Below, piece after piece: positions 7,701 through 33,100 of a DNA stretch of 64,000 nt (positions within the stretch are counted from its first letter, which is position 1; the number at the start of each line of letters is the position of its first letter). The position numbers and the translations under genes were made by a program. The stretch is from Sediminicoccus sp. KRV36. Lineage in GTDB: Bacteria > Pseudomonadota > Alphaproteobacteria > Acetobacterales > Acetobacteraceae. The stretch is from the NCBI RefSeq assembly GCF_023243115.1, contig NZ_CP085081.1, positions 806,001-870,000 of the forward strand, read 5' to 3'. The notes below the pieces were generated by a model. The model was not told the origin of the DNA and ran no database searches. It saw only the letters and a list, made by a program, of their open reading frames with translations.

Positions 7701-7752
7701 ACAAGTAACGACCCGATGGACGCTAGCCTGCGCCAGGATTAGAGCGGCACCC

Positions 7753-8457: not shown

Positions 8458-8462
8458 GGGGG

Positions 8463-9149: not shown

Positions 9150-9154
9150 CGCCC

Positions 9155-10163: not shown

Positions 10164-10194
10164 GGCCCGGCAGGCGGGTCTTCCCGCTCGGGCC
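10164..10194. terminator. Hairpin between convergent tupA and racemase-like gene
   Basis: A two-part stem is visible: GGCCCG (10164-10169) pairs with CGGGCC (10189-10194), and GCGGG (10174-10178) pairs with CCCGC (10183-10187) around a TCTT loop. It lies 18 bp past the racemase-like stop in that gene's direction and in the 236-bp region downstream of tupA. There is no T-run. A shared terminator is likely but not proven. The rest of 9977-10212 is GC-rich and shows nothing else I can name. Confidence 0.4.
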
Positions 10195-10212
10195 AGCCTC
10201 TCCCGCCCGCCC

Positions 10213-10932: not shown

Positions 10933-11078
10933 CGGCGGGCAGTAGTGCCCGGCCCTTGGGCAAAGGCAAGGGGGCCAAAGGGGGGCGAGGGGCAATCGGG
11001 GCGCGCTTGGCGCTTGCTCCGAGGGCCGGCATCGGGGCTTAGTAGCGCCCGAGGAAACCCCAGACAGGGACAAAGAAC

Positions 11079-12692: not shown

Positions 12693-12700
12693 TTCCCATG

Positions 12701-12752
12701 AAGCCGCGCCACCCCGCCCTTGCTCTTGCTCCCGATCGGGTTGGCGCGGCTT
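12701..12752 (+). promoter_or_regulatory. Intercistronic stem-loop between binding protein and permease genes
   Basis: A perfect 11-bp inverted repeat pairs AAGCCGCGCCA (12701-12711) with TGGCGCGGCTT (12742-12752). The loop contains a further palindrome, CCCGATCGGG (12731-12740). In ABC operons such hairpins after the binding-protein gene often cause partial termination or protect the upstream mRNA, so that more binding protein than permease is made. The structure is seen; the function is inferred. Confidence 0.55.
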
Positions 12753-12783
12753 TGACTGACATGTTTTCCGGAGGGTGGGCCTG

Positions 12784-13737: not shown

Positions 13738-14633
13738 GCACCTCCGCCGCCACCGCCGAACTCGCCATCCAGGCGAAGGCCGCCGTCGCCCGGTCCGAGG
13801 GCTATTGGGCCGGCGTCTGGAAGCGCCTCAAGCGCGACCCCGTAACCATCGGCTGCGCCAGCGTGCTGCTGCTGATGCTTCTGGTCATCATCTTCGCGCC
13901 ATTCATCGCGCCGCATGATCCCTTCCAGGGCAGCATGATCCGCCGCCTGCGCCCGATCGGCACCGAGAACCACATCCTCGGCACCGATGAACTGGGCCGC
14001 GACATGCTGACGCGCCTGATCTTCGGCGGCCGCCTCTCCTGGTTCATGGGCATCGTGCCGGTGGCCATGGCCTTCGTCATCGGCACCTTCCTCGGTGTCG
14101 TCGCGGGCTTCACCGGTGGCAAGCTGAACATGCTCATCATGCGCGTGACCGATGTGTTCTACGCCTTCCCCTCGGTGCTGCTGGCGGTGGCGATCTCGGG
14201 CGCGCTCGGGGCGGGCATCCTGAACGCCATCCTGGCGCTGACGCTGGTCTTTGTGCCGCCGATCATCCGCGTGGCGGAATCGGTCACCACCGGCGTGCGC
14301 AACCTCGATTTCGTGGATGCGGCGCGGGCGTCCGGCGCCTCGGCCTTCACCATCGTGCGGGTGCATGTGCTGGGCAATGTGCTGGGGCCGATCTTCGTCT
14401 ATTCCACCTCGCTCATCTCGGTCTGCATGATCCTCGCTTCGGGCCTTTCCTTCCTCGGCCTGGGCACGCGGCCGCCGGAAGCCGAATGGGGGTTGATGCT
14501 GAACACCCTGCGCACGGCGATCTATGTGCAGCCCTGGGTGGCGGTGCTGCCGGGTGCCTGCATCTTCGTGACGTCGATCTGCTTCAACCTCGTCAGTGAC
14601 GGGTTGCGCCAGGCGATGGATGTGAAGGGCTGA
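13734..14633 (+). CDS. Dpp/Opp-type ABC transporter permease 2 (DppC-like)
   Basis: The 299-residue product starts at the ATG at 13734, overlapping the preceding stop by 4 bases. It has an N-terminal cytoplasmic stretch, a first membrane segment (CASVLLLMLLVIIFAPFI), the family motif LGTDELGRDMLTRLIFGGR, the EAA-like loop FVDAARASGASAFTIVRVH, and the end SDGLRQAMD. It should pair with the DppB-like subunit. No DppD or DppF ATPase follows; the next 770 bp contain only remnants, so the ATPases must be supplied from elsewhere or have been lost. Confidence 0.93.
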   Translation: MSTSAATAELAIQAKAAVARSEGYWAGVWKRLKRDPVTIGCASVLLLMLLVIIFAPFIAPHDPFQGSMIRRLRPIGTENHILGTDELGRDMLTRLIFGGRLSWFMGIVPVAMAFVIGTFLGVVAGFTGGKLNMLIMRVTDVFYAFPSVLLAVAISGALGAGILNAILALTLVFVPPIIRVAESVTTGVRNLDFVDAARASGASAFTIVRVHVLGNVLGPIFVYSTSLISVCMILASGLSFLGLGTRPPEAEWGLMLNTLRTAIYVQPWVAVLPGACIFVTSICFNLVSDGLRQAMDVKG

Positions 14634-15407: not shown

Positions 15408-17249
15408 TCACATCCAAAGTGCCAGCCGCAGGTAGTCCACCAGGCGGTGGCTGATGATCCAACCGAGCGAACGGTGGCCGGCGTTGATCCGGGCCACGCC
15501 GCTCATGCCCGGGCGCCACCAGTCGGGCGGCAAGGCGTCGGCCTCGGCCTCGGCCCGCACGGGGAAGGTGTTCACACCATCCTTCACCGCCGCGGCCGGA
15601 ATCACCCGGGTCACCCGCATGTGCCAGGCTGTGTGCGGGTCGGCGGTCAGGGTCACCTCGGTGGTCATGCCCTCGCGCAGGCGGTGGATGTCCCGCTCAT
15701 CCACGGCCAACTGTGCGAACAGACCGGCAAGTGCGGCGACCTTCACCACCATTTCGCCGCGCCGCACCGCGCCACCAAGGCTCTTGCCGGGCTCGCCTTC
15801 CACCACGATGCCGTCGCTGGGCGCCACCACGGCCGCGCTCCGCAGGCGGTACTCCACCTGGTCCAATCGGGCCTGGGTCTGGGCCACCTGAGCCTCGGCG
15901 ATCCGCATCTCCACCAATTGCCCGGCGGCAAGGCGCTTCTCGGCTTCCCGCACATATTGGGCGATGTCAGCCAGGTGCGAGACCCGCTCCAGCTGCAGCT
16001 CCTGGGTCGCCAGCGCAAACAGCGGCGCACCGGCGCGCACCGTGCTGCCCAGCGTCACCGCGCTGGATTCGATATAGCCGTCGAACGGCGCGCCGACGAA
16101 GGCGATGCGGTCGGTGCGGATCTCCACCGGCGCGTGGATCCGGTAGGGCACCGGCAAGGCCAGCAGCAGCAACGCGGCCAGCGCCAGTCCGCCGGCCAGC
16201 CAGCGGCCGGGCCGGGTGGTGGCGGATAGCCGGCGCGGCAAGCTGCGGAACACTTCGCGCGGCAGGCGGCGCCACAACGGCGCGGCCTGGCGATGCAGGT
16301 CCCGCAGCGGCCGCGCCATCTGGTCGCACAACAGGCGCAGCGCCCATTGCTCGGACTGTGAGAACGCGGCAGGCCGGCGTTCCAGCACGACCGCACCGAC
16401 CCCCTGGTCGCCGATGACCAGCGGCAGGCTGAGCAGATGGCCAGGGCGGACCGCCTCGGCATAGGCCTGATGGGCACGGGCGCCGCCGCCTTCGGTGGGC
16501 CACGCCACTTCCTGCCACTGGGTCAGCGCTTCCTGCCCGGCATCCTCCAGCAATTCGGTCAGTTCGGTGCGGCGGTCCAGCTTGTCTCCGTGGCTGACGG
16601 CGCTCAGCCGCAGGCCCGCGCGCTTCTGCCACAACAGGGAGACCTGCTCGCAGCCGAACCGCTCACACAGCTCATTGGCGAAGACCAGGCTGGCCTGGTC
16701 GAAGCGCTCTGCCTCGAGCACGCGCCACAGGGTTTCCTGCAGCGCCTTCTGGCGGTCCAGGTCACGCGCCACGCGGCGGTGATTGCGCGTCAGCTCGTAG
16801 CTGTGCGGCGCCATGGCCAGCAGGCCGAGCCAGTGCGCCGTGTGGTCGGCGCGCACCGCCGCCGGCACATGGACGCTGAGCAGGAGTTCCTGCGCGGCAC
16901 CTTCCGGACGAACCGAGATCAGCCGCAGGTTCCAGTTGCCTTGCCGCGCCACGCCGGACGCCATGCGCTGTTGGCGGGCCTGTGCGAGCAACGCCGGGTC
17001 AACCGTGGCGGCCAGGCTGGGCAGGGCCTCGGGCCGGGCGGCGGCGGCTTCGGGCGCCGCGAGGAGGACCGTCCAATCGGCCAGCGGGTCCTGGCCGGGC
17101 TCCCCCAGGGGGCGCAGATACAGCACCGCAAGCTGGCCTTGCAGCTGGTCCAGGGCAGCCTCGGTCCAACGGCGCCAGAACTCGGCCGGGGTGCCGGCGA
17201 ACTCCAGCAGCCCCTCCAGCGGCTGCGGTGCTGATGTCAGCGTGTCCAT
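15408..17249 (-). CDS. GAF-domain protein fused through one TM helix to an HlyD-type adaptor
   Basis: The 613-residue protein has three parts. Residues 1-160 form an uncharacterised N-terminal region. Residues about 170-310 look like a GAF domain (FANELCERFGCEQVSLLWQ, LSLPLVIGDQGVGAVVLERR). One membrane helix follows at 351-369. Residues 376-613 are an HlyD/membrane-fusion-protein module: lipoyl-like half motifs (APFDGYIESSAVTLGSTVRAG and VVAPSDGIVVEGEPG), a short coiled-coil hairpin at about 416-470, and beta-barrel sequence with RPGMSGVARI. The GAF part should be cytoplasmic and the adaptor periplasmic. It starts 3 bp after the SecA-like stop and is the last gene of the cluster. A signal-gated adaptor role is inferred. 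Confidence 0.82.
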   Translation of the reverse strand: MDTLTSAPQPLEGLLEFAGTPAEFWRRWTEAALDQLQGQLAVLYLRPLGEPGQDPLADWTVLLAAPEAAAARPEALPSLAATVDPALLAQARQQRMASGVARQGNWNLRLISVRPEGAAQELLLSVHVPAAVRADHTAHWLGLLAMAPHSYELTRNHRRVARDLDRQKALQETLWRVLEAERFDQASLVFANELCERFGCEQVSLLWQKRAGLRLSAVSHGDKLDRRTELTELLEDAGQEALTQWQEVAWPTEGGGARAHQAYAEAVRPGHLLSLPLVIGDQGVGAVVLERRPAAFSQSEQWALRLLCDQMARPLRDLHRQAAPLWRRLPREVFRSLPRRLSATTRPGRWLAGGLALAALLLLALPVPYRIHAPVEIRTDRIAFVGAPFDGYIESSAVTLGSTVRAGAPLFALATQELQLERVSHLADIAQYVREAEKRLAAGQLVEMRIAEAQVAQTQARLDQVEYRLRSAAVVAPSDGIVVEGEPGKSLGGAVRRGEMVVKVAALAGLFAQLAVDERDIHRLREGMTTEVTLTADPHTAWHMRVTRVIPAAAVKDGVNTFPVRAEAEADALPPDWWRPGMSGVARINAGHRSLGWIISHRLVDYLRLALWM

Positions 17250-17252
17250 GGC

Positions 17253-19253
17253 TCAGAATCCGGTCCGGTCGAGGTGAAGGTCCTGCTCGAGAATCCGCTT
17301 GCGCTGGTTATAGCTCAATCCTTCGGCGCGGCGCTGCGCCCGCACCAGCAGCGCCGGCGCCAGCCGTTGGGCGAGGCCGGAGGGCAGTCTCGGCCAGGCC
17401 GCGCGCACGAAGGCGGGCAGGAAGCGCCGGATCACCTCGTCCTGCGGGCAAAGGTAGAGCCGGTAGGAGCCGGGGTCGCCCTGCCGGGCGCAGCGGCCGA
17501 TCAGCTGGCGGTCAATGCGGCGATAGTCGTTCGGTTCGCCGATGATGACGTGCAGCCCGCCGCCCGCCCGCACCGCCGCGTCCAGCGCGATGTCGGTGCC
17601 GCGCCCGGCCATGTTGGACGCGATGGTGATGGCGCCGGCCTGCCCCGCTTCGGCGACGATCCCGCTCTCCTGCGCGTGATTCACCGCATGCAGCAGGCGG
17701 ATGCCGGCGGCGCGGGCAGGGCTTCGGGCGGCGAAGCGAGCCAGCAGGGCCTCACCGCTGCGGACGCTGCGGATGCCGACCAGCACCGCCCTGCCCGTTT
17801 CCGCCAGCGCCAGCGCATCGGCGACGATGGCGTCGAACTTCGCGGCCTCGGTCGGCAGGAGGCGCAGCGGCAGCCGGGCGCGGCGCACCGGGCGATGGGT
17901 CGGGATGGCGACGCTGCGCTGGCGATACACCCGGGCCAGCTCGCCCCGCGCCTCCCGCGCCGTGCCTGTGGTGCCGGATAGCAGGGGGAACAGACGGAAG
18001 AAGCGCTGGAAGCTGAGCCGGGCGGAGACCTCGGCCGGCGGGGTCAGTTCCAGCCCGGCGGTGGCTTCCAGCACCTGCTGCAGGCCGAGCGAGAGGGTGC
18101 GCTGTTCGGCCAGCCGGCCGGTGAGTTCATCGACCAGCACCAGCTTGCCTTCGCGTACGACGTAGTGCTGGTCGCGCTCCATCAGGTACTTCGCGTGCAG
18201 CGCCTGCCCGGCCAGCTCACGCGCGCGTTCGGGGCTTCGCCAGAAGGCAGAGAGCCCGCCGGTCAGCGCGGCCAGCCGATCCTTGCCGATGGCGGTCAGT
18301 TCGACATGCCGCAGTGCGGGCTTGAGGGTGAAGTCCTCGCCCTCCCGCAGCTGCGCCGCCAGCCGCACCGCGTCCATCGCCGCCGCCTGCAGGGACGCAT
18401 CGGGACGCGGGCTGGAGATGATCAGCGGTGTCACCGCCTCATCCACCAGCACGCTGTCGGCCTCGTCCACGATCACCTGGTGCAACCCGCGCATCACCGG
18501 CTGAGGGCCGCCGACCGTGCCATGCATGGCGCCCAAGGCCAGTGCCACCGGGCTGGGCTGGCGTCCGAGCGCCAGGCGGTCACGCAGGAAATCGCCCAGC
18601 AGGTCGCGGGCCGTGGTGTAGACCACGTCATGCGCATGGGCGGCGGCCCGGCTGGGCAGCGGTGTGTCCCCGGTAATGGCCGCGACCGAAAGGCCGCACA
18701 GCGCGTAGAAGGTGGTGAACAGCTCGGCGTCGCGGCGGGCCAGGTAGTCATTGGCGGTGACCACATGGCAAGGCCGACCGCGCCAGGCCACCACGGCCGC
18801 GGCGGTGGCAATGGTCAGCGTCTTGCCCTCGCCGGTCGCCATCTCGGCAATGCCGCCTTCCGCGAGCAGCAGCGCGCCCATCACCTGCTCGGGGTGCGGG
18901 GTCAGGCCGGTGACCAGGCGCACCGCTGCGATGCTGCCGGCGAGGCAGGGCTCCAGCGCTGCGGCCAGCGGGGACCCGCGCATGCGCAGCGCGAGGCCGG
19001 TCAGTTTGTCGCGCAGCGTGGCTTCGTCCAGTGCGAAGAGCGGCTGGGCCGCGGCCAGCACGCGAAGCGCGCGGCGACGCAGCCTCGGTACCGGGCGCTG
19101 CACGGCGCCGTGCAGCCAGCCGCCGGCGCGCTGGCCGGCGCGGTCCAGCCAGGGCATCGCCTCGGGATCGCGATGCGCTTCGAGCAGGAACAGCCGGCTG
19201 AGCGGTGCCGGCGCGGCCAGCGCCTGCGGCGGGTGGGTCGCGGCCTGCGTCAT
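17253..19253 (-). CDS. Short SecA-like translocation ATPase lacking the C-terminal third
   Basis: I take the ATG at 19253, which overlaps the M50 stop by one base (TGATG); 666 residues result. All SecA motor motifs are present: Walker A ATGEGKT (139-145), VTANDYLA, Walker B DEADS (263-267) followed by LVDEAVTPLIIS, a preprotein cross-linking region with VDELTGRL, GTTGTA, SNMAGRGTDIAL (546-557) and GRCARQGDPG (586-595). The protein stops at QRKRILEQDLHLDRTGF, where SecA enters its long scaffold helix. The two-helix finger, helical wing and zinc-binding C-terminus are therefore missing (E. coli SecA has 901 residues). It is unlikely to be the housekeeping SecA. Its position suggests it energises export of the giant protein. 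Confidence 0.88.
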   Translation of the reverse strand: MTQAATHPPQALAAPAPLSRLFLLEAHRDPEAMPWLDRAGQRAGGWLHGAVQRPVPRLRRRALRVLAAAQPLFALDEATLRDKLTGLALRMRGSPLAAALEPCLAGSIAAVRLVTGLTPHPEQVMGALLLAEGGIAEMATGEGKTLTIATAAAVVAWRGRPCHVVTANDYLARRDAELFTTFYALCGLSVAAITGDTPLPSRAAAHAHDVVYTTARDLLGDFLRDRLALGRQPSPVALALGAMHGTVGGPQPVMRGLHQVIVDEADSVLVDEAVTPLIISSPRPDASLQAAAMDAVRLAAQLREGEDFTLKPALRHVELTAIGKDRLAALTGGLSAFWRSPERARELAGQALHAKYLMERDQHYVVREGKLVLVDELTGRLAEQRTLSLGLQQVLEATAGLELTPPAEVSARLSFQRFFRLFPLLSGTTGTAREARGELARVYRQRSVAIPTHRPVRRARLPLRLLPTEAAKFDAIVADALALAETGRAVLVGIRSVRSGEALLARFAARSPARAAGIRLLHAVNHAQESGIVAEAGQAGAITIASNMAGRGTDIALDAAVRAGGGLHVIIGEPNDYRRIDRQLIGRCARQGDPGSYRLYLCPQDEVIRRFLPAFVRAAWPRLPSGLAQRLAPALLVRAQRRAEGLSYNQRKRILEQDLHLDRTGF

Positions 19254-21424
19254 CAGACCCGGTACCGGCGCTGGAAGAACTGTTGGAGGCCGGTCCAGGC
19301 CTGGGCCGCCGCCGGGCGCCACGGCAGCGGGATGCGGATCCAGCCGGAACGGCCGGTGCGCACGCCCTGATCTTCCCCCGGGGCGTCGCCCTGCCATTCG
19401 GGGTCCTCGATCCGCGCTTCCAGCAGGAAGTAGGGCTCCACGCTGCGCCGGCCGCTCGGGTCATTGGCCTCGACCGGGATCCGGCCGCCTGCCGCCGGGC
19501 CTAACGCCGCCGAGGGGAGCTGCGTGCTGGAATGCGGCACCAGCGTCAGCCGGACGGCGTGCAGCACGCGGCTCCGCTCGCCCTCCAGCCGCACCTCAAG
19601 CCGTTCCTGCTGGGCGCCGTAGAGGATGGCGCCGGCATCCTGCCCGATGACGGCGCGGAACAGATGGGCGCGGTCGTCCACCAGCCGGCCGAGTTCCACC
19701 CCGCGGCCGAGCCAGCTGTCGCGCTTGGTCGAGACGTCCGGCGCCACCCAGATGCCAGCCTGCCGGGCCACCACGGCCAGGCTGGCCAGCTGGGCTTCCA
19801 GCGATGCCTGCATCACGGCGAGGGTGCGCAGGCGTTCCAACTGCGGCTCCAGGTCCACGGCGCCGCCTTCCAGCGACTTGCTGGCCTGCAGCTCCGCCCG
19901 CGCAACCTGCGCCATGACCCCGACCAGTTCCAATTCCAGTTCTGGGTTGGTCATCGTCACCAGCGGGGTGCCGGCTTCCACCCAGGCGCCGCTTCGAACA
20001 TGGACCTGTTGCAGCACCCCGGCCGCCGCGGTGAAGACCGGCGCCTGGTCAATCGCCTCCGCCACGCCGTGCAGCACACGATTGTCCGGCAGCGGCATGA
20101 GCACCAGCACCAGGACCAGCCCTGCCGCCGCCGCCGCACCCTGGCGCAGCGGCCGGCCGTGGCGGGCACGAAAGAATGGGTCGCCCAGCCGGCGCAACTG
20201 CTGGCCCAGTGGCCGCAGGAAGGATGTGAAAGCCAGCGCCATCGCCACCACCAGGCCAAGGCCTAAATAGGCATCGGCGATGAACAGCACGATACCGCCC
20301 ATCACCATCAGGCGGTAGATGTTGGACGCCAGGAAGAAGCCCGCCAGGCTCCATTCGGTGCCGGGCGTATGCTCGGCGGCCTTCTCGTCTTCGGCCTGGG
20401 GCAACGCCAGTGCGCGAAACCGCCGCCCGGCCGCGCCGCGCGCCTGTTCATACAGGTTCGGCACGCCCAGCAGATCGGCGAGGATGTGGTAGCCGTCGAA
20501 GCGCATCAGCGGATTGATGTTGAACAACAGCGTGTAGACCACCGTGGTGAACATCAGGTTGTGGCACAGCTCGCTGAGCAGCCCGGGCGGCGAGCGGGTC
20601 CAGACCAGCGTGGCTGCGGCGGCCACCAGCAGGTCCACCAGCATGCCGCCGGCGCCGATGGCGGCGCGCTGCCAGCGGCTGCGCAGGCCCCAGCTGGGGG
20701 TGACATCCACATAGGGCAGCGGCGTGAAGAGCAGCAGCATGATGCCGGCGGTACGGACCTCGGCGCCGAAGCGATAGCTGAGCGCGGCATGGCCGAACTC
20801 GTGCAGGCCCTTGGAGATGAAGATCGCGGCGAACAGCAGCAGCAGGTTGTTCGGTTGCAGGATATCGCGGACCTGTTCCACGGCGCGGCCACTGTGCAGC
20901 AGGAACTCGGCAAAGCCCCAGCCGAGGAACAGCACCGCCAGCACCGCCGCTGCCGGGCTGAACAGCAGCCGGATCAGCGGCCCAAGCCGACGCAGAAGCG
21001 GCTGCGGGTCGAACATCGGAACACGCATGAACAGCAGTTCCGCGATGCGGGCGGAAAGCGGCTTGCGCGCCCGCGTCTCGGCGCGTTCCAGCAGGCGGCG
21101 CTCATCGGCGCCACCATCCACGTACAGCATGTTGCCAGCGGACAGTGCCACGAGCAGCTGGAACACCTCCTCCTGGCCCGGTGTCTCGGTCGGCGTTGCC
21201 TCGATCGCTTCGCGCCAGACCTGGTCCACAGTGGCTTCAGGCCGCAGCCGATCGATGAAGGCCCAGCCAGCCAACGGCACGCGGAAGAAGCCGTTCTTGA
21301 TCCGCTCATGCAGGACATACCAGGGCGCGCCACGGCCCTGGTGCAGCCGCACCCGCACCGTGGGCCGCAGCCCCACCCGGAGCGCCGAGACGCGGTGCCA
21401 GTTGTCGGAGAAGGTGCGGCCCAT
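19253..21424 (-). CDS. M50 (site-2-protease-like) membrane peptidase fused to an HlyD-type domain
   Basis: The 723-residue protein begins with a PqqD-like winged-helix region (about 20-105). A multi-helix membrane domain follows with the zinc motif HEFGH (208-212) and the second M50 motif NINPLMRFDGYH, whose Asp310 is the expected third ligand. After a last membrane helix near 430-447 comes a periplasmic adaptor-like module (AAAGVLQQVHVRSGAWVEAG, then NPELELEL and a short coiled-coil). Both metal-site motifs are intact, so it may be an active intramembrane or juxtamembrane protease. It starts 6 bp after the HlyD gene and overlaps the SecA-like gene by 1 base. Processing or gating of the giant substrate is an inference. 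Confidence 0.88.
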   Translation of the reverse strand: MGRTFSDNWHRVSALRVGLRPTVRVRLHQGRGAPWYVLHERIKNGFFRVPLAGWAFIDRLRPEATVDQVWREAIEATPTETPGQEEVFQLLVALSAGNMLYVDGGADERRLLERAETRARKPLSARIAELLFMRVPMFDPQPLLRRLGPLIRLLFSPAAAVLAVLFLGWGFAEFLLHSGRAVEQVRDILQPNNLLLLFAAIFISKGLHEFGHAALSYRFGAEVRTAGIMLLLFTPLPYVDVTPSWGLRSRWQRAAIGAGGMLVDLLVAAAATLVWTRSPPGLLSELCHNLMFTTVVYTLLFNINPLMRFDGYHILADLLGVPNLYEQARGAAGRRFRALALPQAEDEKAAEHTPGTEWSLAGFFLASNIYRLMVMGGIVLFIADAYLGLGLVVAMALAFTSFLRPLGQQLRRLGDPFFRARHGRPLRQGAAAAAGLVLVLVLMPLPDNRVLHGVAEAIDQAPVFTAAAGVLQQVHVRSGAWVEAGTPLVTMTNPELELELVGVMAQVARAELQASKSLEGGAVDLEPQLERLRTLAVMQASLEAQLASLAVVARQAGIWVAPDVSTKRDSWLGRGVELGRLVDDRAHLFRAVIGQDAGAILYGAQQERLEVRLEGERSRVLHAVRLTLVPHSSTQLPSAALGPAAGGRIPVEANDPSGRRSVEPYFLLEARIEDPEWQGDAPGEDQGVRTGRSGWIRIPLPWRPAAAQAWTGLQQFFQRRYRV

Positions 21425-21430
21425 GCCGTG

Positions 21431-22300
21431 CTACCGGGCGGGCAACAGCCGGGCCTGCAGGCCCGGGCGGATGCCGGCGGCCAGGTTGGACTCGAGTTCC
21501 ACCTTCACCTCGGCCAGGCCGCTGGCGGCATCGGCGACCGGCGAGACGAAGATCACCCGGCCTTCCACCGCGACCGGCCCGGCCCCCGCCTGCACGATCA
21601 CCCGGGCCGGCATGCCGGCTTCCAGGCTGCCCAGTGCCGCAATGGGCAGGTTGGCCACGAACAGGATCTTCGAGAGGTCGCAAAGGCGGATGGCGGTTTC
21701 GTTGACCTGCACGCTTTCCCCGACGTGGCGGATGATGCGCGTGACCACCCCGGGAGAGGGCGCGCGCAGGATGCGCCGGGCCACCATCTCCTGCGCCATG
21801 CGGAAGTCCACATGTTCGATCAGCTTGGCATTGCGCAGGCGCAGCACTTCAGCCGCGGCCAGCGCGCTGGCGAGCTCCTTGTTTTCCAGCTCCTCGCGGC
21901 TGATGCCGCGGTTCTGGCTGAAGATGACGCGGGCAGCATTGGCTTGCGTGGCGGCGGTGGCGGCGCGGGCGTTGGCGGCGCTCAGCTCGGCCTCGCTCTG
22001 CCAGACCAGGCGGCGGCGCTCCACCTCCAGCTCCTCGGCCACCAGTTCAAAATTCGCCAGCACATCGCCGGCATTCACCACGCTGCCTTCCTGCACCGGC
22101 AGTGCCGCGATGCGGCCGCTGACCGGGAAGCCAAGGCTGAGGTCACGCAGACATTGGGTCAGGCCGCGCACGCCGGCATCCGGCGGCATGGCCAGCGGGC
22201 GCGGCTGCGGCTGTGCCAGGGCGGGCTGTCCCGAAGCGGGCAGTCCCAAGGCCGGCAGGGCGCAGCAGGCCAGCGCCAGCAGCAGGCGAAGACGGTTCAT
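21431..22300 (-). CDS. Periplasmic HlyD/RND-type adaptor protein
   Basis: The 289-residue protein has a signal peptide ending near GQPALAQ (residue 29), so it is exported rather than TM-anchored. The first lipoyl half motif is visible (LGFPVSGRIAALPVQEGSVV), then an alpha-hairpin at about 85-165, the second half (RRILRAPSPGVVTRIIRHVGESV), and a beta-barrel region with IRPGLQARLLP. Such adaptors bridge inner-membrane transporters to TolC. It overlaps the TolC-family stop-start by 4 bases and precedes the M50-HlyD gene by 6 bp. No cognate RND pump or ABC exporter is encoded nearby. Confidence 0.88.
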   Translation of the reverse strand: MNRLRLLLALACCALPALGLPASGQPALAQPQPRPLAMPPDAGVRGLTQCLRDLSLGFPVSGRIAALPVQEGSVVNAGDVLANFELVAEELEVERRRLVWQSEAELSAANARAATAATQANAARVIFSQNRGISREELENKELASALAAAEVLRLRNAKLIEHVDFRMAQEMVARRILRAPSPGVVTRIIRHVGESVQVNETAIRLCDLSKILFVANLPIAALGSLEAGMPARVIVQAGAGPVAVEGRVIFVSPVADAASGLAEVKVELESNLAAGIRPGLQARLLPAR

Positions 22301-24087
22301 TCCAGCTCCAGCCGGCGCAGGATATCGCCGCGCGAGAGCGAGGCAACGTAGCCGGCGCGGTTCGCCAGCATGACGCTGTCCAACATCTGCTCCTGCGCCT
22401 CCAACGCCTCGATCTGGCGGCGGATCACCTCCACGCGGGACCGCCTGCCCTGGCGCAACAGATTCTCGTCCAGCGCGACGAGGCGGCGCTGCTGGTTGTA
22501 TGCGGTCTGTTGCTGCTCGACCATTTCCATCACGCGGTTCAGCACGTTGATGCTGCTGGTCACCTCGTTGACGATGCGCTGCTGCACCGCGCGCTGTGCG
22601 ATGACGGTCTGGCCCTGCCGCAGCCGGGCCTGGCTGAGTTCCGCCTGCCGCCGATTGTCGCCGTACAACGGTGCCCTCAGCTGTAGTCCCACCATCCAGC
22701 CGCCGTAGTTGACGCCGTTGCCGACGGCGTATTCGCTGATCGCCCGGTAGCGGTTGTTGGTATTGAGATCTTCGATGCCGGCGCGAGCGATGAAGTTGAG
22801 TTCGGGCAGCGTCTGGTTGCGGGCGAAGCGCACCTCCACGTCGTCGCGCGACAGGCGATTGTCCATGAAGCGGCTTTCCGGTCGCTGGGCCAGGCTTTCG
22901 GCGAAAAGCCGAGGCAGTTCGCCGGTGCCGGGGGCCATCTCCGGCAGCGGGATGCGCTGCGCGGTCAGCACCAGCGCATCCGTGGCAGCATAGCGGCGCG
23001 GGCGTTGCGGCTGGCCGCTCGGCAGATCTCGCGCGGAGAGCCGGGCCTGGAGGTCGCCCATCTGCTCCTCGAGGTCCTGCTGGGCCTGCTGCAGCGCGGC
23101 CTGCCGCTGGGCGACCGACACGTCGATGCCCATCACCTCCCCGCTTGAGCGCAGGCCGCTATCCTCCTGCGCGCGAAGGTCGCGCGCCAGGGTCTCGGTC
23201 AGCTCCACGATCCGGGCCCGGATGCGGACCCTGCCCTCTGCCCTTTGGGTCGCAAGGTAGGTCGAGATGCCTTCCACCACGCGCTGCGCGGAGACCTGCC
23301 GCACGGCCTCGCGCGCCATATCGCGTTCAAATTGGGCGACGTGGATCGGCCGGTTGGTGGCATCGGGGCCGGCATTGGCCAGCAGCGGTTGGGTGAGGCG
23401 CATGCCGAACCACGCCCTGTATTCCGGCGACCGCGCCCCAACGATCGGCTGAAGCGTGTTCCGGATACGCCCGACATTATAGCCGATTTCGACATCCGTA
23501 CCCACTGGCAACCTGGTCGTGATGCTGCTGTTGACCTGGTAGATCCGCGCACCATAGGTGGCCTGGTTGGCGCGCTGAAGGATTTCGTTGGATGTATTGA
23601 GCACGTAGCTGGAATCGTAGCTCGTGGTCAGGTTGAAGACCGGCTCGTACAGCGCCTCGGCGCCGCGCACCCGCTCACGCGCGATTTCGGCCTCAAGCCG
23701 CTGCACCAGGATCTGCTCGTCGGCGCCGAACAGCAGGCGAGCGAAGTTGCGCAGCGTCAGCGGCTCGGCGGACTGGCCGCGCGCCGGCGCCGGCACAGTC
23801 AGGCCCGACACCGATCGGTTCGGTGCCGGGGGCGGCGGGCCAGTGCGCACTGCGGCCGGTGGCGGCGTCCCGGTCCGCGTCGCCGCCGGCGGCGGCATGC
23901 CCACGCGGTCCACTGGTTCGGTACGGCCCTGCACGGGCTGCGCCAGGGAGGGCGCCGCCAAGCCGAGCAGCAGGGCAGCGAGGGTAGCCTGGCCCAGCGC
24001 AGGCCTCATATCCCGGCTGACGCGAACCGCGGGGCCGTGATCAGGCGCCGCGCTGGCTGGACCAGTAGCAAAGGAGTTCTCGCTCAT
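22297..24087 (-). CDS. TolC-family outer-membrane efflux protein
   Basis: The ATG at 24087 has a GAGGAT-type ribosome-binding site and starts 31 bp after the giant gene stops; 596 residues result. A signal sequence lies at about 27-49 (ending APSLAQ), behind an unusually long n-region; an internal ATG at 24009 is the alternative start. A proline-rich linker with three PPPA-type repeats (65-92) leads to two outer-membrane-efflux repeats rich in amphipathic helices (LEAEIARERVRGAEALYEP, VAQRQAALQQAQQDLEEQM, AELSQARLRQGQTVIAQRAV). It should form the trimeric channel-tunnel of an exporter. Its position directly behind the giant gene suggests that protein is the cargo. Confidence 0.9.
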   Translation of the reverse strand: MSENSFATGPASAAPDHGPAVRVSRDMRPALGQATLAALLLGLAAPSLAQPVQGRTEPVDRVGMPPPAATRTGTPPPAAVRTGPPPPAPNRSVSGLTVPAPARGQSAEPLTLRNFARLLFGADEQILVQRLEAEIARERVRGAEALYEPVFNLTTSYDSSYVLNTSNEILQRANQATYGARIYQVNSSITTRLPVGTDVEIGYNVGRIRNTLQPIVGARSPEYRAWFGMRLTQPLLANAGPDATNRPIHVAQFERDMAREAVRQVSAQRVVEGISTYLATQRAEGRVRIRARIVELTETLARDLRAQEDSGLRSSGEVMGIDVSVAQRQAALQQAQQDLEEQMGDLQARLSARDLPSGQPQRPRRYAATDALVLTAQRIPLPEMAPGTGELPRLFAESLAQRPESRFMDNRLSRDDVEVRFARNQTLPELNFIARAGIEDLNTNNRYRAISEYAVGNGVNYGGWMVGLQLRAPLYGDNRRQAELSQARLRQGQTVIAQRAVQQRIVNEVTSSINVLNRVMEMVEQQQTAYNQQRRLVALDENLLRQGRRSRVEVIRRQIEALEAQEQMLDSVMLANRAGYVASLSRGDILRRLELE

Positions 24088-24118: not shown

Positions 24119-27100
24119 TCATTCGCTAGCCACCGGGACAAAGCCGCCGGCGGGGAGCAGCGGGGCATCCAGCGTGTCATCTGCCGCCTCAAGTATGCGG
24201 GCCATCTGCGGCCAGTTGGCCGGCGGCGCTTCATCCAGGCGGGCCTGCGGCTGGCCGCCATTGGCTTCCAGTTCCTCGAAGAGCTGACGGACGGTACGGC
24301 CAACCGCGTCGGGTGGGATGCCAGCCGGGTTGCGACTGCCTTGGAGCCCGAGATCGACCGGCGACTGTTCCAGTTGCCGCAGCTGCTCCTCGATCCAGCG
24401 GCCGAGCGGGGCTTCGCCGGTCAGGCTCGACGGCGGCAGCGTCAGGCCCGGTCCGCTGAACGGATCAAGGCCGAGCAAGTCGAGGATGGACCTTTCAGGC
24501 TGCGGCTCGGGCTCCACCACCCGGATCGGCCGATGGATCTCGCCACGGCCGAGCCGGGTGTAACCCTGCCCCAGCCAATTCGATGTCCCAGACCAATTCG
24601 ATGCCCCAGGCCAAGTCAATGTCCCAGGCCACTGGGCGCCCCAGGGCACGCCGTCCAGCCACCACAGCGCCGGGTCGTAGGGGTTGGGGCTCATCAGATA
24701 AGCCAGTTCCGCCGCACCGATGCCGGCAGTCTGCGGGAAGGGTGCGTCGTTGCTGGCCACGAACACGCCCTGGCGGATGCCATTCACCACCATCCGCGGG
24801 AAGGCGCCCTGCCGGTCGGCCAGGTACAACACGGCGTCGTAGCCGATGGGGCCGCTGCTATACAGCGTGATGTCGCCGGTGCCCCGGTTGACCACGCCCA
24901 GCGCGCCCACCTGCAGCCCGCCGTCGCCACGCAGGTTGATGCCGCCCTGGGTCACCACGGCGGCATTCAGCACCTGGGCCGAGATGTTGAGGTCCTGGGA
25001 TGGCACGCCAATGCCGTTGGCCGCGGCCAGATTGACCAGCGGTGCGATCACCAGGGCCTGCTCGGCCGCGGTGTTGTCCAGCAGCTGGCCGCCGGTGCTG
25101 GTCAGCGTGGCGCTGGTGCCGGCAACCACCTGGTTCAGCAGCATGGTGCCGGCGGTGGTGATGGTGACGGTGCTGGTGCCGATGATCAGCGCGTTGCTGT
25201 CGGCCTGCGTCAGGCCGCCGGTGGCGACCGAGATCCCGACCAGCCCACCGCCGAGGATTGCGGCATCCGCCATTGTCAGCTGGCCCTGGCTGACGCCGAG
25301 CAGCAGCATGCCGCCCGGCACGTTCACCTCGGCATTGCCGCTCAGCGCCACGTCGCCGGTGACCTGGGCCAACAGCACGCCGGCGCCGCTGCCGACGACC
25401 AGCGCGGATTGGTCGCTCATCACCAGTTGCCCGCCGACCGCCAGCACCATGCTGCCGCCGACATCGATTTGGGCCTGACCGGACATGGTGAGGTCGCCGG
25501 AGACCTGCAGCGGCGACAGGTCGCCGCCGATATCCACCAGCATGCCATCCACCAGCCGGACACTGCCGCGCACCTGAATCTGGGCATCGCCGTCGGCCTG
25601 GATGGTGGCCATGCCGGCGTTCTGGAGGTCACCGGCCGAGAGGGTGATGTCCAGCGTCTGGCCCGAGATCGATGCGCCGGTGGCCAGCGAGAGGTTGCCG
25701 GCGTCGACGGTGAGCGCCAAGGCGCCATCCGCACGCATCCGCGCCCCGGTCGTCAGCGTGACCGGCCCGCCGATGGCGGCATTGAGCGCGCTGACGGTGG
25801 TGATGGTGGCCTGGCTCGCCAGCGAGAGCGCGCCATCCGAAACCCGCAGGTCCAGGCTTGCGGCGTTGACGCTGGCGCTGGTGCCCAGCGTGGCATCGCC
25901 CTGGCCGGCCAGAATGGTCAGCGCGCCGGCAGCATTCACCGCAGCGCCGTCGGACAGCGCCAGTCCGCCCTGCGGCATCCGTAGCGACATATCTGCCAGC
26001 GAGGCCAGGGTGGCGCCGCTGCCGGCCAGCAGGTCGCCCCGGGCCACGTCGATCGAGACCGAACCTGCCGCGCTGAACAGCGCCTGGCTGCCCATGCCGA
26101 AGTCGCCCTCGCCGACGCTGACCGTGGCAGCGCCGCCCACGCGGATGGCGGCGCTGGTCGTCAGCGTCACCGGCCCGCCGATGACGGCGTCGAGCGCGTT
26201 GACGGTGGTGATGGTCGCCTGGCTCGCCAGCGAGAGCGCGCCATCCGAAACCCGCAGGTCCAGGCTTGCGGCGTTGACGCTGGCGCTGGTGCCCAGCGTG
26301 GCATCGCCCTGGCCGGCCAGAATGGTCAGCGCGCCGGCAGCATTCACCGCAGCGCCGTCGGACAGCGCCAGTCCGCCCTGCGGCATCCGTAGCGACATAT
26401 CTGCCAGCGAGGCCAGGGTGGCGCCGCTGCCGGCCAGCAGGTCGCCCCGGGCCACGTCGATCGAGACCGAACCTGCCGCGCTGAACAGCGCCTGGCTGCC
26501 CATGCCGAAGTCGCCCTCGCCGACGCTGACCGTGGCAGCGCCGCCCACGCGGATGGCGGCGCTGGTCGTCAGCGTCACCGGCCCGCCGATGACGGCGTCG
26601 AGCGCGTTGACGGTGGTGATGGTCGCCTGGCTCGCCAGCGAGAGCGCGCCATCCGAAACCCGCAGGTCCAGGCTTGCGGCGTTGACGCTGGCGCTGGTGC
26701 CCAGCGTGGCATCGCCCTGGCCGGCCAGAATGGTCAGCGCGCCGGCAGCATTCACCGCAGCGCCGTCGGACAGCGCCAGTCCGCCCTGCGGCATCCGTAG
26801 CGACATATCTGCCAGCGAGGCCAGGGTGGCGCCGCTGCCGGCCAGCAGGTCGCCCCGGGCCACGTCGATCGAGACCGAACCTGCCGCGCTGAACAGCGCC
26901 TGGCTGCCCATGCCGAAGTCGCCCTCGCCGACGCTGACCGTGGCAGCGCCGCCCACGCGGATGGCGGCGCTGGTCGTCAGCGTCACCGGCCCGCCGATGA
27001 CGGCGTCGAGCGCGTTGACGGTGGTGATGGTCGCCTGGCTCGCCAGCGAGAGCGCGCCATCCGAAACCCGCAGGTCCAGGCTTGCGGCGTTGACGCTGGC

Positions 27101-30100
27101 GCTGGTGCCCAGCGTGGCATCGCCCTGGCCGGCCAGAATGGTCAGCGCGCCGGCAGCATTCACCGCAGCGCCGTCGGACAGCGCCAGTCCGCCCTGCGGC
27201 ATCCGTAGCGACATATCTGCCAGCGAGGCCAGGGTGGCGCCGCTGCCGGCCAGCAGGTCGCCCCGGGCCACGTCGATCGAGACCGAACCTGCCGCGCTGA
27301 ACAGCGCCTGGCTGCCCATGCCGAAGTCGCCCTCGCCGACGCTGACCGTGGCAGCGCCGCCCACGCGGATGGCGGCGCTGGTCGTCAGCGTCACCGGCCC
27401 GCCGATGACGGCGTCGAGCGCGTTGACGGTGGTGATGGTCGCCTGGCTCGCCAGCGAGAGCGCGCCATCCGAAACCCGCAGGTCCAGGCTTGCGGCGTTG
27501 ACGCTGGCGCTGGTGCCCAGCGTGGCATCGCCCTGGCCGGCCAGAATGGTCAGCGCGCCGGCAGCATTCACCGCAGCGCCGTCGGACAGCGCCAGTCCGC
27601 CCTGCGGCATCCGTAGCGACATATCTGCCAGCGAGGCCAGGGTGGCGCCGCTGCCGGCCAGCAGGTCACCCCGGGCCACGTCGATCGAGACCGAACCTGC
27701 CGTGCTGAACAGCGCCTGGCTGCCCATGCTGAAGTCGCCCTGGCCGACGCCGACCGTGGCCGCGCCACCCACGCGGATGGCGGCGCTGGTCGTCAGCGTG
27801 ACCGGCCCGGCGGCGTCGATCCTCAGCTCTCCGGTCGTGCCGACCTGGGCGCGGTCGGCGAAGCTGACGCCGCCGGCCCCGGTGGCGATGCTGAGCTGGC
27901 GGGCCTGGACCGAGGCATCGCTGCCGAAGCTGACATCGCCCAACCCGGCGCTGATGATGGCAGGGCCGGTGACGTTGGCCGCGGCGCCGCTGGCGAAGCT
28001 GACCGCCTGGCCGGCGGTGATGGTCGCCGGGCCGGTGACGTCCAGTCGGGCCTGGCCGTCGAAGCGGGCCGAGCCGAGGGTCGCGGTAAGCATCAGGCTG
28101 GCGGCGTCCAGTTCTGCCAGCTGGCCGAAGGTGATGTCGCCCCCCGCTGCGGTCAGGCTGGCGGCGCCGCCTATCTCGGCCAGCGCGCCATCGGCGAAGC
28201 TGATGCCGCTGCCAGCCTGCACCGTGGCATCGCCCGCGATGCGGAGGCTTGAATTGCCACCGAAGCCGACCGAGCCGGTGGTGGCGGCGAGGGCCAAGGT
28301 TTCGGCACTGACCTGCGCCCCGTTGCCGAAGCCGATATCGCCACCGGTGGCGGTGATGTCGAGCAGCGTGCCGACCTGGACCCTGGCGCCATCCGAGGCG
28401 GTGAAACCGCCGCCCGCGAGCGTGGCGATGAGATCCTGCGTCGCGGTGACCTGGGCGCCGGCGCGGAATGCGATGTCGCCGGCATTGGAAGTCAGGAGGA
28501 TCCGGTCACCGCTCATGCTGTCCGTGACGGTCAGGTCAGCCTCCATCACGGCGGAGCCTGTGGTGGTGGCGCTGAAGCCCTGGATGGTGGTGTCGCGCAG
28601 CAGGTGGATGTAGGCGGCGCCGCTGCGGGCCTGGACCTGGTCCAGCAGCGCCGCCGAGATGTCGATGGCGCCGATATCGGTGATGTTGCCGATGGCCTGG
28701 GCGGTCATGCTGGCGATGCGACCGCCACCGATCACCTCGATATTCGGGCGGCTGAGCAGCTCGTCGACCGTGTTGTCGAGGATGTCACCGGTGCGGGAGT
28801 TCAGCGTCAGCGTCCCGCCATCCACCAGCAGGTGGCTCAGCAGGATGTTGCTGGCGGCGGTGATGCTGGCGTCGCCGGCCACGCGCATCTCCGCCGCATC
28901 GGCCATGACCAGCCGGCCGAGATCCACGGTCAGCACCGTGGCGCCCGCGCTGAGCGGACCGTTCAGCGTCAGATCGCCATCGAGGACGGCAAGCTGCAGC
29001 GGCCCGGCCAGTGTGACGGCGCCGAGGCCGAGGGCCTGGGTGGACACGAGATAGACGCCAAGCTCGCCGCCCTGCAGCTGGTCCAGCCGGTCCACCGCGA
29101 TGCTGACGGCGCCGCCCGGGGCCGCCGTGCCGACGCCACGGGCGTTGATGCGCAAGGCGGTGCCGGTGCCGGTTGCGTAGATGTTCTCCAGCGGGCTGTT
29201 GGCGCCGTCGAGCACCCGGCCCCCGGTGGAGGTCAGCGAAATGATGCCGCTCTCGGTGGAAAGCTGCGTCAGGGAGATGTCGTCGCGGGTGGCGATGGTC
29301 AGGTCCGCGACTGCGGCCACCGAGCCTTCGCTGGTCATGCCGAGGCCGCCGGCCGCCACCCCCAGGCTGGCGCTGCCGACCGTCATTGCGCCAGCCAGCG
29401 TCAGGTTGCCGCTGTCGAGGCGGAGCGCGAAGGCGCCGGTGCCAGTGCCGATGGCGCCGAGCACGAGGCCCGAGGTGCCAGGATAGGTGCTGGCCACCAG
29501 ATAGGCGTCGCCCGAAGTGGTGGTCACGCCGGCAAGCCGGCGGGCCGAGAGCGTGATGGCGCTGCCGGCACTGCCGATGCTGCTGCCGGACAGCGTCAGC
29601 GCCCCGCTGCCGGTGAGGTTCGTACCAGGTGCGCCCAGCCCGTTGATGATGGCGCCGCCGGCCAGGACACTGGTTCTGCCGCCGCCGAAATCCACGGTGC
29701 CGAGCGTGATGTCGCCGCTGGCCGCCATGCCGAGCGCGTTGATCGTGGTGAGCGAGGCGGTGGCACTCATCGAGATCGTGCCGGCCAGCGCGTTGATCTG
29801 CGCCGCCCGGGCCTTGACCTGGCCTTGCAGCAAGATGTCGCCGCTCTGGGCGGTCAGCTCGACCGTGCCGTCGCTGGTCAGGTCACGCAGCGTGATGCCG
29901 CCGGTCAGTCCAAGCCGCAGGTCGCCAATGTGGCCATCCGCCTTCAGCACGGTCGCGGTGTCGATGTCGATGTCGCCATCCGTGACCGCGGAGCCGATCT
30001 GCTGCGCATCCAGGCTGATGCCCTTGGTGGCGTCGCTGGTGGTCAGCAGGGCGTTCTCACGCCCCGCGGTGCCGTCCAGGATGGCGCCCGCGGTGCTGAG

Positions 30101-33100
30101 CAGGGTGATATTGCCGCCGAGGCTGGTGAGGTTGGTGAGGGTGATATTGCCGGTCGTGGTCACGCCGATGTCGCCATCGGCGGTGACGGAGGCGCGGCCG
30201 GACTGGGTGAAGCCGCCGGCGCCGACCACCAGGTCCAGCGTCTCCACGGAGGAGGCGCCGGTCATGGTCACGCTGCCGCTCGTCTGCGCGAAGCTGACGG
30301 CGGCGGCGGTGTTGAAGGTGCCGATGCTGACATCGCGGCGCGAGATGAGGTTGATGCCGGTGGCGCCGGGGCCGCGGGCGGTGCTGGCCAGTTCCGAAAT
30401 GGCGGGCGTATCCACCACCACCGCCTTGGCCAGGCTGCCGATATTCGCCGCGGTCAGGCCGAGCGTGCCGTTGGCGACGATCAGGTTGGTGCCGGCATCG
30501 GCCAGGGTGTTGATGATGTCGGCATCCGTGCGGAGCGTGACGTTGCCGTCGGCAGCGCTGATCCGCGTCAGCAGGATATCGCCGGATGCATGGATGGAGA
30601 CCGTGCTTCCGGAGACGATGCTGGAGCCGGACTCCTGCACGAAGCGGCCATCCCTGACCGCGATCTGCACGGAACCGGCACGGATCGGCCCCTGCACGAA
30701 CAGGTCGTCCGCCATCACGTCCAGCACCAGCGCCGTGGAGATGTCCACGCCGCTCAGCACGGGGTCTATCGCGAAGGCGACATAGGCCGCGCCGGTTGCG
30801 GCGTACAACTGGGTGACCCGGGCGACCGCGACCTGCAGCATGGCATCGCCCGGCGCGCCGATGGAGCCGGCGGCCATGGCGAGCGTGCCCTTGGTGGCGA
30901 TGTTGGTCGCCCCACGGGCGGCATTGGTGATGGCGCCGCTGCTCGCCAGCGTGATCACCTGGCCGGACCCGGCGGTGGCGTCGCCGATCACCCGCGCCAG
31001 CGAAAGGCCGGCCGTGGCGCTGAGCAAGATATCGCCCTGCACGGCGATGGTCGCTACCGAGGCCATGTCGAAGCGGCCGCCGAGGTTCAGCGTCAGCGTG
31101 GCAGCGGTGATGCCCTGCTGGAGCGTGGCGCTGGCAGCGCCGGAGGTCAGGCTCAGCCCGCCGCCGGTCTGCAGGCTGCCCAGCGCCACCCCCGGCGCAC
31201 CGGCCGCGTTCTGCAACGCCACCCAGGCATCGCCGGTCACGCGAAGCAGGCTGATGGCGGTGGCGTCCACGCCGAGCGCGCTGGTCGCGCTGCCCAGGCT
31301 GGCGGCGGTGACGCGGAGGTCCCCGGCGGCCAGGTTGGCCTGTTGCCCCACCCCGGTCAGCGCCTGCCCCGCCGCCTGCACCGTCAGCGTGCCCAGCGCC
31401 GAAAGGTTGCTGATGGCAGCGGCGCCGGTGGTGGTGAGCACGAGGTCGCGCGTCGCGGCCAGGCTGGCCCTGGCTTCCATCTCAAGCCCGGAGCTGCCGA
31501 CGGTCAGGCTGGCGTCGCGGCCGGCGGTGGCGGTGCCGGACAGCCGCAACAGGCCGGGCCCGGCGGTGGCGATGACGAGGTCCTGCCCGGCGGCGAGGTC
31601 GCCGAGGAGAAGGTCGCCCGCGCCGATGAAGCCGGCGACCACCACGCCAAGGCTGCCGCCCGCGCTGAGCGTACCGACTCTGCCGGCGTTGACGTTGATG
31701 TCGCCAGGCTGGGTGTTGCCGTGGTCGGCGGCGTCCGACCGCAGCGTCACCGCCAGGTTGCCGCCGCTGGCCAGGGTCACGCCGCCCTGGGTGATGATGT
31801 TCGCAGTCTCGTCGGCGCGCGCGTCAACCAGTGTGCCGGCGCTGCTGGTGATGCTGATGCCGCCCTGCACCGCCTGCACGCGGCCGAGCGAAATGTCGCC
31901 GGTGGCGGTGAGCGTCACGCCGGCGGCAAGGCTGGTGCCGGCGGCGGTGCTGCTCAGCACGCGGCTGCCGGCCATGCCGATGCCGCCGCCGGTCACGCCG
32001 ATGGCGATGCCCTGGGCGGTGATGTCGGCGTTGAGGGCCAGGTCGCCGCCGCTTGCGGTCAGCGTGAAGGCATCGCGCACCGCAACGCTGCCCAGACTGG
32101 CCCGGCTGGCGCTGATCGTGACGGTGGCCGCTCCGAGCGTCGCACTCAGCGCATCCAGCGCCACTGCGCCGGGATTGGTGACGGCAAGCCACAGGCTGCC
32201 GCTGGTGGCGGTGGCGGAAGCCAGCTGGGCGGTACCGAGGCTGAAGGCTTGCGTGGCGCTGCCGATGCTGGCGGCGCGCAGCGTTGCAGCACCGCTACCG
32301 GCCAGGTTGACCGCGCCGGCCGAGACATCGGCGGCGCTCAGCTGGCTGAGCAACGCGCCGTCGATGGTCAGGCTGGTGGTGAGCGTGCCGGCATTGATCC
32401 GGCTGATCCGCGCGTCACCGCCGGCCGTGATGGTCAGCGGGCCCGTGGTGGCGGCGGCCGTGGCGGTGGCGGCCATTGTCAGGTCGCCGGTGGTGCCGAT
32501 GTCTAGGCTGGCGCCGCTGACGCTGCCGTTCAGCAGCAGCGTGCCCCCCGCCCGCAGCACCGCGGCGCCGCTGGCATCCAGCAGGGCGATGGTCAGGGCG
32601 TTGCTGTCGGTGATGCGGATATCGGCGCCGGTCACGCTGACGGTGCCGAGCTCGTTGGCGGCGTTGGTCAGTGTCACCGACTGGCGGTTCAGCCCGGTGA
32701 TGGCGGTCAGGTCCAGGCTGCCCTGGGCGCGCAGTGCGCCCGTCTGGCTGACGGCGCCGGCCGCGCGCAGGACGGCATCGCCGCCGATGCTAAGCGCACC
32801 AAGGCTGAGCGCACCGCCCGCGGTGAGGTCGAGCGCACCGGCCAGGCTGCCATCCAGCGCCAGCGCCGTGCTCGTCGCCAGCCGCACATCCTGCGCCTCG
32901 ATGAGACGGACGCTCCCCAGCGCATTGCCGGCATCGCCGAGCCGGACATCGCCCTGCGCCGAGAGCCGCAGCGTGCCGATGACAAGGCTGGTCGCGTCGC
33001 GCTGGCTGATGCCGCCGCCCGCGGTGAGTGTCGCGGTGCTGGTAACGATGAGGCCGCCCAGACGCAGGGCATCGGCATCCACCAGTGTCAGATTGGCGGC

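Follow-up and report, generated by a model that had tools for sequence, protein, structure and literature searches.

Five tightly packed minus-strand genes, at positions 24087-15408 of a 64,000-nt stretch of DNA from Sediminicoccus sp. KRV36 (assembly GCF_023243115.1, contig NZ_CP085081.1, positions 806,001-870,000 of the forward strand; hereafter the window), encode what we propose, with a probability of roughly 0.6, to be a leader-peptide-guided exporter for giant proteins. In this exporter a domain resembling the recognition element (RRE) of systems for ribosomally synthesized and post-translationally modified peptides (RiPPs) would bind an N-terminal LEPR leader on the cargo, an M50 intramembrane protease would cut that leader off, and the chain would pass on to TolC. 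The reading frames of the window give, in order, TolC, HlyD, M50-HlyD, a short SecA (SecA2) and GAF-TM-HlyD (TM, transmembrane), preceded on their upstream side by the frame of a giant protein. The proposal draws on gene order, domain content, the LEPR leader itself, co-occurrence and adjacency across genomes, a predicted RRE-like fold, a conserved HExxH protease motif and a pairing between leader classes and exporter types; from these we infer leader binding, cleavage, assembly of the exporter and its source of energy. The question addressed is how proteins of many thousand residues are exported without a Sec-like signal or an adjacent ATP-binding cassette (ABC) exporter; if confirmed, a leader-guided route that takes giant proteins out of the cell with no ABC pump would be a kind of secretion unmatched by any known system that we found in the literature searched. 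The features on which the argument rests are as follows (aa, amino acids).

22297..24087, minus strand: TolC-type outer membrane protein of the OEP family; counted from the ATG at 24087 it has 596 aa, and its N-terminus is Sec-like and hydrophobic.
21431..22300, minus strand: separate HlyD-type adaptor (HlyD_3/HlyD_D23), 289 aa, with a Sec-like hydrophobic N-terminus.
19253..21424, minus strand: RRE-M50-HlyD fusion, 723 aa, comprising a PqqD/RRE-like domain, an intramembrane metalloprotease and a periplasmic-type adaptor.
21110..21382, minus strand: RRE-like domain of the M50 protein, residues ~15-105, modelled with a pLDDT (predicted local distance difference test score) of 88.9.
20789..20803, minus strand: HEFGH zinc motif of the M50 protease, residues 208-212, completed by D310.
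17253..19253, minus strand: SecA2, a short SecA relative of 666 aa with nucleotide-binding domains NBD1 and NBD2 and a preprotein-binding domain; the start used is the ATG at 19253, and the frame stays open as far as the ATG at 19397.
15408..17249, minus strand: GAF-TM-HlyD adaptor, 613 aa, with an N-terminal GAF region, a single hydrophobic segment at about residues 345-365 (read by eye) and the HlyD part at residues 372-573.
24119..64000, minus strand: 3' part of the giant gene, whose frame continues past the edge of the window.
Genome C1:883543-883602, outside the window: LEPR-XLL leader of the giant protein (NF012209 match).

The five genes are spaced by -4, +6, -1 and +3 bp, and 31 bp separate the unit from the giant frame; an earlier note on this DNA had described the same packing behind a giant frame, and both coordinates and family matches agree with it. 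M50-HlyD matches Peptidase_M50 and, weakly, HlyD_3; SecA2 matches SecA_DEAD, SecA_PP_bind and P-loop_SecA; and GAF-TM-HlyD, a homologue of which adjoins many M50-HlyD genes in relatives, matches GAF at 23.3 bits (cut-off 22.4) as well as HlyD_D23. As in type I secretion, the unit combines a TolC-type channel with HlyD-type adaptors (OEP and HlyD families). Family matches of the five genes include no ABC exporter and no resistance-nodulation-division (RND) pump, as the earlier note had stated, and the five genes likewise contain no C39 peptidase fused to an ABC exporter and, in a search confined to them, no SecY. Across the KRV36 genome no LssB-type exporter matched above cut-off, one ABC match being weaker, and the ABC genes that flank the unit in the window belong to importer families (tungstate TupA type and nickel/peptide type). 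The earlier note had also allowed for an ABC exporter just outside the window; a pattern search for Walker A and ABC signature motifs found none in 13 non-overlapping frames of at least 150 aa listed within ~22 kb upstream of the giant gene, in a listing of longest frames that could hide a gene.

Read beyond the window in the same genome, the giant gene comprises 17,842 codons, with its ATG at window-extended coordinate 77647 (genome C1:883647) and a TAA bounding the frame upstream, consistent with the lower limit of 13,293 residues given before. Its description as a secreted-type protein has to be corrected: a hydrophobic core of the Sec kind is missing from the N-terminus (Kyte-Doolittle mean over 12 residues of at most 1.42, vs 2.24 for the TolC and 2.47 for the HlyD protein of the window), and residues 16-33 instead match the LEPR-XLL family NF012209 at 25.4 bits (cut-off 17). 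This is the sole NF012209 match over cut-off in the KRV36 genome, three weaker matches lying below it. A Pfam scan of the last 8,000 residues alone matched DUF5649, Big_13 and Big_6 repeats. Near the C-terminus (window ~25400-28600), the listed translation also holds several near-identical long repeats in tandem.

LEPR proteins, M50-HlyD and SecA2 were surveyed in a first sample of 200 Pseudomonadota genomes and a second, mostly new sample of 369 genomes, which overlaps the first by at least G003, G019, G023, G031, G082, G102 and G114. LEPR was found in 43, SecA2 in 31 and the M50-HlyD family in 77 of the 200 genomes of the first sample. All 43 LEPR genomes fall among the 77 M50-HlyD genomes (p = 7e-23), a count read off match lists and obtained with an M50 search profile that includes rows from LEPR loci of this sample; by genus, the 26 LEPR genera all lie within the 39 M50 genera of 110 (p = 7e-16). 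The 31 SecA2 genomes, by the same lists, also all hold M50-HlyD; from the SecA2 list G103 and G106 had been dropped (941 and 919 aa, matching only to ~580 and read as housekeeping SecA), and the partial G069 kept. LEPR was present in 28/31 SecA2 genomes vs 15/169 others (odds ratio 96, p = 4e-20). For the second sample the counts were 34 LEPR and 54 M50-HlyD genomes of 369, with both in 30 (p = 4e-25); among the four LEPR genomes without M50-HlyD, two have LEPR frames of just 99 and 168 aa, a third is a highly fragmented genome, and the fourth, G571, has a LEPR frame of 7,373 aa and no M50 among the few candidates scored.

Adjacency points the same way, within the limits that contig breaks at giant genes place on such counts: 20 of the 49 LEPR genes of SecA2 genomes in the first sample lie on the contig of SecA2, 18 of these 20 within 13 kb, and among the new genomes of the second sample 15 of 42 LEPR genes lie on one contig with an M50 gene, all 15 within 15 kb. 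In addition, 11 of 14 named genomes in which SecA2 adjoins M50 have LEPR. The earlier note is supported in describing a TolC/HlyD-type conduit that has no ABC ATPase and is tied to giant proteins. The three SecA2 genomes without LEPR (G034, G081 and G165) carry the unit on contigs of 21,112, 6,795 and 10,302 bases, respectively; in G034 the unit has a large neighbouring frame that extends past the fetched stretch, and the contigs of G081 and G165 leave no room for a giant gene. We rejected the explanation that LEPR simply tracks any type I secretion, as LEPR occurs in 21/62 genomes with LssB vs 22/138 (odds ratio 2.7, p = 0.008), a weak association. The link between LEPR and SecA2 is seen both with LssB present (LEPR in 16/17 SecA2 genomes vs 5/45 others) and with LssB absent (12/14 vs 10/124).

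Among Planctomycetota, LEPR was found in 9/149 genomes, and SecA2 matches of at least 500 bits in 6 of these 9 vs 10/140 others; the association is weaker than in Pseudomonadota, and the LEPR model may miss planctomycete variants. One Phycisphaerae genome (L289-L297) shows the leader on varied cargo, with nine different LEPR proteins of extracellular type, of 510-3,744 residues and on nine contigs, and one SecA2 match; two of the nine carry subtilase, two C25 peptidase and six dockerin domains, and SdrD_B repeats occur in eight. If the proposal is true, an exporter could be assigned to giant surface-type proteins in many proteobacteria and in some planctomycetes, and the curated LEPR-XLL motif would become a readable secretion signal.

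The leaders fall into two classes, and the classes follow the type of exporter. From 84 loci, 67 distinct leaders were picked by pattern and split into class S (36 leaders) and class D (31 leaders). Class S reads E-x-L-E-x-R-x-L-L-[SA]-[AG]-[DE] (typically E-x-LEPR-xLLSAD), with the E two residues ahead of LE in 35/36 and an acidic last position in 32/36; class D reads [LM]-x-L-E-P-R-x-[LM]-[LF]-D-[AG]-A (typically LEPR-xLFDGA). The motif follows a basic-rich stretch; its median distance from the start that was chosen is 28 residues, a figure that leans short because starts were chosen within 90 residues where possible. A mean Kyte-Doolittle value of 2.0 over 12 residues is reached by only 6/67 leaders. 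Class S leaders come from SecA2 genomes in 23/26 cases and class D leaders in 5/28 (p = 1e-7), 13 of the 67 leaders having been dropped from this comparison as their genomes are not in the 200-genome set.

Two types of M50-HlyD, A and B, were assigned by the first matched profile position. The pairing of leaders with these types was examined for 46 of the 67 leaders, those of L222-L236 being omitted because they had been found beside M50 genes, and with the first part of the M50 list, among the matches listed, the 24 other listed rows sharing no contig with tested leaders. On this basis 24 of the 46 leaders have a listed M50 on their own contig within 20 kb: all 17 class S leaders adjoin a type A M50, 14 of them together with SecA2, and 6 of 7 class D leaders adjoin a type B M50. 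The exception is a class D leader beside a "type A" M50 in G082; this M50 protein was one of those in the profile and is type B by eye. Genome G105 has both an S/type A and a D/type B pair, each on its own contig, and so favours cognate pairing over a lineage effect. We give even odds to the broader claim that LEPR is a general N-terminal sorting code of an ABC-free RRE-M50-HlyD pathway with two versions insulated from each other, each using its own dialect of the leader and only one of them having a SecA motor. Leader-like variants possibly missed by the LEPR model or pattern were also seen by eye beside SecA2 units (L056:12866-13921 and L074:12607-21093; LEERRLFSGG and FESRILYSADP).

A fold search with the full-length model of the M50-HlyD protein gave adaptor proteins among the matches listed (50 rows), and the N-terminal domain was therefore modelled by itself. 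The resulting model has the winged helix-turn-helix fold seen in leader-bound RRE structures, and its six best Foldseek chains from the Protein Data Bank are leader-bound RRE proteins, TbiB1/TfuB1 (E 0.025-0.10). The PqqD/RRE fold binds RiPP leaders; winged helix-turn-helix folds occur outside RREs too. At the sequence level, a PqqD Pfam match (E up to 1) was obtained for 13 of 48 M50 family rows, the window's own row not included (best 1.3e-08), and for 9 of 17 full-length M50 rows (best 7.6e-08). The protease has the features of M50 site-2 proteases, an HExxH motif and a distal Asp in transmembrane helices: H208, E209, H212 and D310 are invariant in 17/17 aligned rows, and HExxH is kept in 54/54 M50 frames of fetched loci, 12 of which are also alignment rows. 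If the proposal is true, the recognition of leader peptides, known for small RiPPs, would also apply to proteins that rank among the largest in bacteria.

SecA2 has the make-up of a SecA translocase, a DEAD motor (NBD1 and NBD2) and a preprotein-binding domain, with all four ATPase motifs (TGEGKT, DEAD, AGRGTD and GRxxRQGD) in 28/28 aligned rows, and the M50 gene directly adjoins it in 28/30 SecA2 loci. Its best alignment spans residues 66-600 of a 778-residue SecA chain and ends ~8 residues before the end of SecA2, so that the wing, the two-helix finger and the C-tail are absent; the missing parts serve SecA in its work with SecY. The housekeeping SecA of KRV36 lies away from the unit, at C1:519789-520937. 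The earlier note took the SecA-like protein as the natural candidate motor. It is indeed the only NTPase of the unit and tracks LEPR; as the motor that defines the system it is not supported, since LEPR also occurs in genomes without SecA2.

Fifteen of the 43 LEPR genomes are without SecA2; 14 of these have only a housekeeping-type SecA, and one (G149) shows no SecA. The LEPR region was fetched for eight of these genomes, and M50-HlyD lies near the LEPR gene in seven, that of G142 being on another contig; in three (G082, G054 and G037) the genes recognised also include GAF-HlyD, HlyD and TolC. The type B loci read show no SecA, in lists that keep the longest non-overlapping frames, where an antisense frame can hide a gene in G+C-rich DNA. 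Type A units also vary: G186 has one in which no SecA gene is shown, and G002 (L231:3946-5811) and G010 (L282 ~5600-7738) have, in the SecA2 slot beside the other type A parts, SecA relatives without any of the four ATPase motifs. These two relatives could be non-catalytic scaffolds or decaying copies. Of 20 M50 loci taken from genomes that lack an NF012209 match, nine have a large neighbour with a leader variant (e.g., LEPRMLFDGAVAAT and LEQRMMFDAAGAAT; two of the nine by eye), and seven of the other 11 have a large frame that the end of the stretch interrupts; no recurrent Walker A gene was seen next to the type B units of these 20 loci. Many class D leaders escape the LEPR-XLL model. A SecA-free unit with class D leaders adjoins large genes in many proteobacteria (L184/L285 of G142, L187 of G054 and L222-L230).

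These findings bear on a SecA-driven, type I-like machine in which SecA2 is the essential motor, M50 forms the membrane pore and the leader merely docks the cargo on SecA2. SecA2 being the sole NTPase of the unit, its intact motifs, its place next to M50 and its tracking of class S leaders all speak for this explanation; the LEPR genomes and type B loci without SecA2, the motif-less relatives in G010 and G002, the SecA-free type A unit of G186 and the lack of the SecA parts that work with SecY speak against it, and we regard it as doubtful. We rejected SecA2 as a universal motor because of the LEPR genomes and type B loci that are without it and of the motif-less SecA relatives in two type A loci; it is probably the ATPase of type A.

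Export in two steps, with SecYEG and SecA or SecA2 moving the chain across the inner membrane and the M50-HlyD/TolC unit only removing the leader and crossing the outer membrane, would account for power in type B and is consistent with the preprotein-binding domain kept in SecA2 and with the housekeeping-type SecA of 14/15 LEPR genomes without SecA2. The leaders, however, largely lack a Sec-like hydrophobic core, and the RRE-like domain is expected in the cytoplasm, which implies that the leader is recognised before the membrane is crossed; we consider two-step export unlikely. That M50 is instead a regulator acting by regulated intramembrane proteolysis, or a RiPP maturation protease with HlyD and TolC exporting a small product and the giant neighbour a passenger, is very improbable: the nearest curated family of the M50 proteins is indeed the daptide intramembrane metalloprotease NF041824 (150-165 bits, below the cut-off of 300), but giant LEPR genes are found next to the unit repeatedly, in different genera and with both types, and no recurrent RiPP precursor or modifying gene was noticed among listed frames of at least 120-150 aa, short open reading frames being unlisted and no dedicated search having been made.

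Leader-guided export by the five-gene unit, the reading that we prefer, would proceed as follows. The LEPR leader would act as a sorting signal read in the cytoplasm, where the RRE-like domain of M50-HlyD would bind it and place it into the intramembrane protease, which would cut it off. The chain would then move through an envelope assembly of M50-HlyD, GAF-HlyD, HlyD and TolC, with M50-HlyD and GAF-HlyD as the putative inner-membrane parts, the separate HlyD as the likely bridge across the periplasm and TolC as the predicted exit. In type A, as in KRV36, SecA2 would spend ATP to unfold or push the giant chain; type B would use another power source, most simply the housekeeping SecA/SecYEG or the proton motive force.

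The locus itself has been described before. Kamneva, Poudel and Ward reported in 2015, in several phyla, a short SecA_DEAD protein without wing and scaffold beside HlyD, M50-HlyD, GAF-HlyD and sometimes OEP (PMC4452313); the gene families of this secondary SecA_DEAD locus are shared with the KRV36 unit, and operon META1p2402-2399 of the laboratory strain Methylobacterium extorquens AM1 is one such unit (PMC4452313). The authors suggest SecA as the ATPase and M50 as the pore and call the broader role unknown, and the main text names no cargo and lacks the words adhesin, giant, LEPR and PqqD (PMC4452313). The central idea of the earlier note is not new, because this study had already proposed SecA and M50 as ATPase and pore; what is new is the cargo and its signal. 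The note overlooked the 2015 paper as well as the LEPR leader and the RRE-like domain that the M50 protein carries. In our literature search for the locus, the leader and the RRE-M50-HlyD protein, PMC4452313 alone among the papers listed describes the locus, and the two papers that contain LEPR-XLL mention one giant Vibrio protein and one transcript name. To the 2015 description our analysis adds the leader and the RRE-like domain, the division into two exporter types, the relatives that have no SecA, and the conservation of the protease motif as a pointer to function; if the proposal is true, that SecA/HlyD locus becomes a testable pathway with a named cargo.

Comparison with known systems shows partial likeness to several. 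With type I secretion (HlyB-HlyD-TolC) and the LapB/LssB adhesin exporters, the unit shares a TolC channel, HlyD adaptors and very large, repeat-rich cargo; it differs in having no ABC exporter, which is HlyB or LssB there. Type I cargo carries an uncleaved C-terminal secretion signal, whereas the KRV36 cargo, compared on its N-terminus alone, has a LEPR leader there. For want of an ABC exporter the unit falls outside type I secretion, but its outer-membrane step may still be type I-like; we propose an ABC-free, type I-like exporter. Peptidase-containing ABC transporters (PCATs), which have a C39 peptidase and act on double-glycine leaders, share leader recognition and cutting by a protease built into the exporter, as described in the review PMC8277102, according to which active C39 PCATs handle cargo of up to ~10 kDa; they combine C39 with ABC, whereas the KRV36 unit has an M50 intramembrane protease and an RRE-like domain and no ABC. 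RiPP systems (PqqD, TbiB1/TfuB1 and the daptide M50 protease NF041824) share the RRE-like fold and a related M50 protease, but the KRV36-type protein includes a fused HlyD adaptor, and the proteins with which it is associated have thousands of residues, unlike the small peptides of RiPP systems. Accessory Sec systems (SecA2 and SecA2-SecY2) likewise have a second SecA beside a likely dedicated cargo; unlike theirs, the KRV36 SecA2 is without wing and two-helix finger, has no second SecY in its unit and is coupled to HlyD/TolC.

Two observations concern the surroundings. The flanking importer genes lie at window positions 7818-14633 on the plus strand and encode a TupA-type tungstate binding protein with its ATPase and a nickel/peptide-type binding protein with two permeases. 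Just upstream of the start of the giant gene, at C1:883882-884445 (L003:17882-18445), there is a weak match to an IS5-family transposase (28 bits, cut-off 110).

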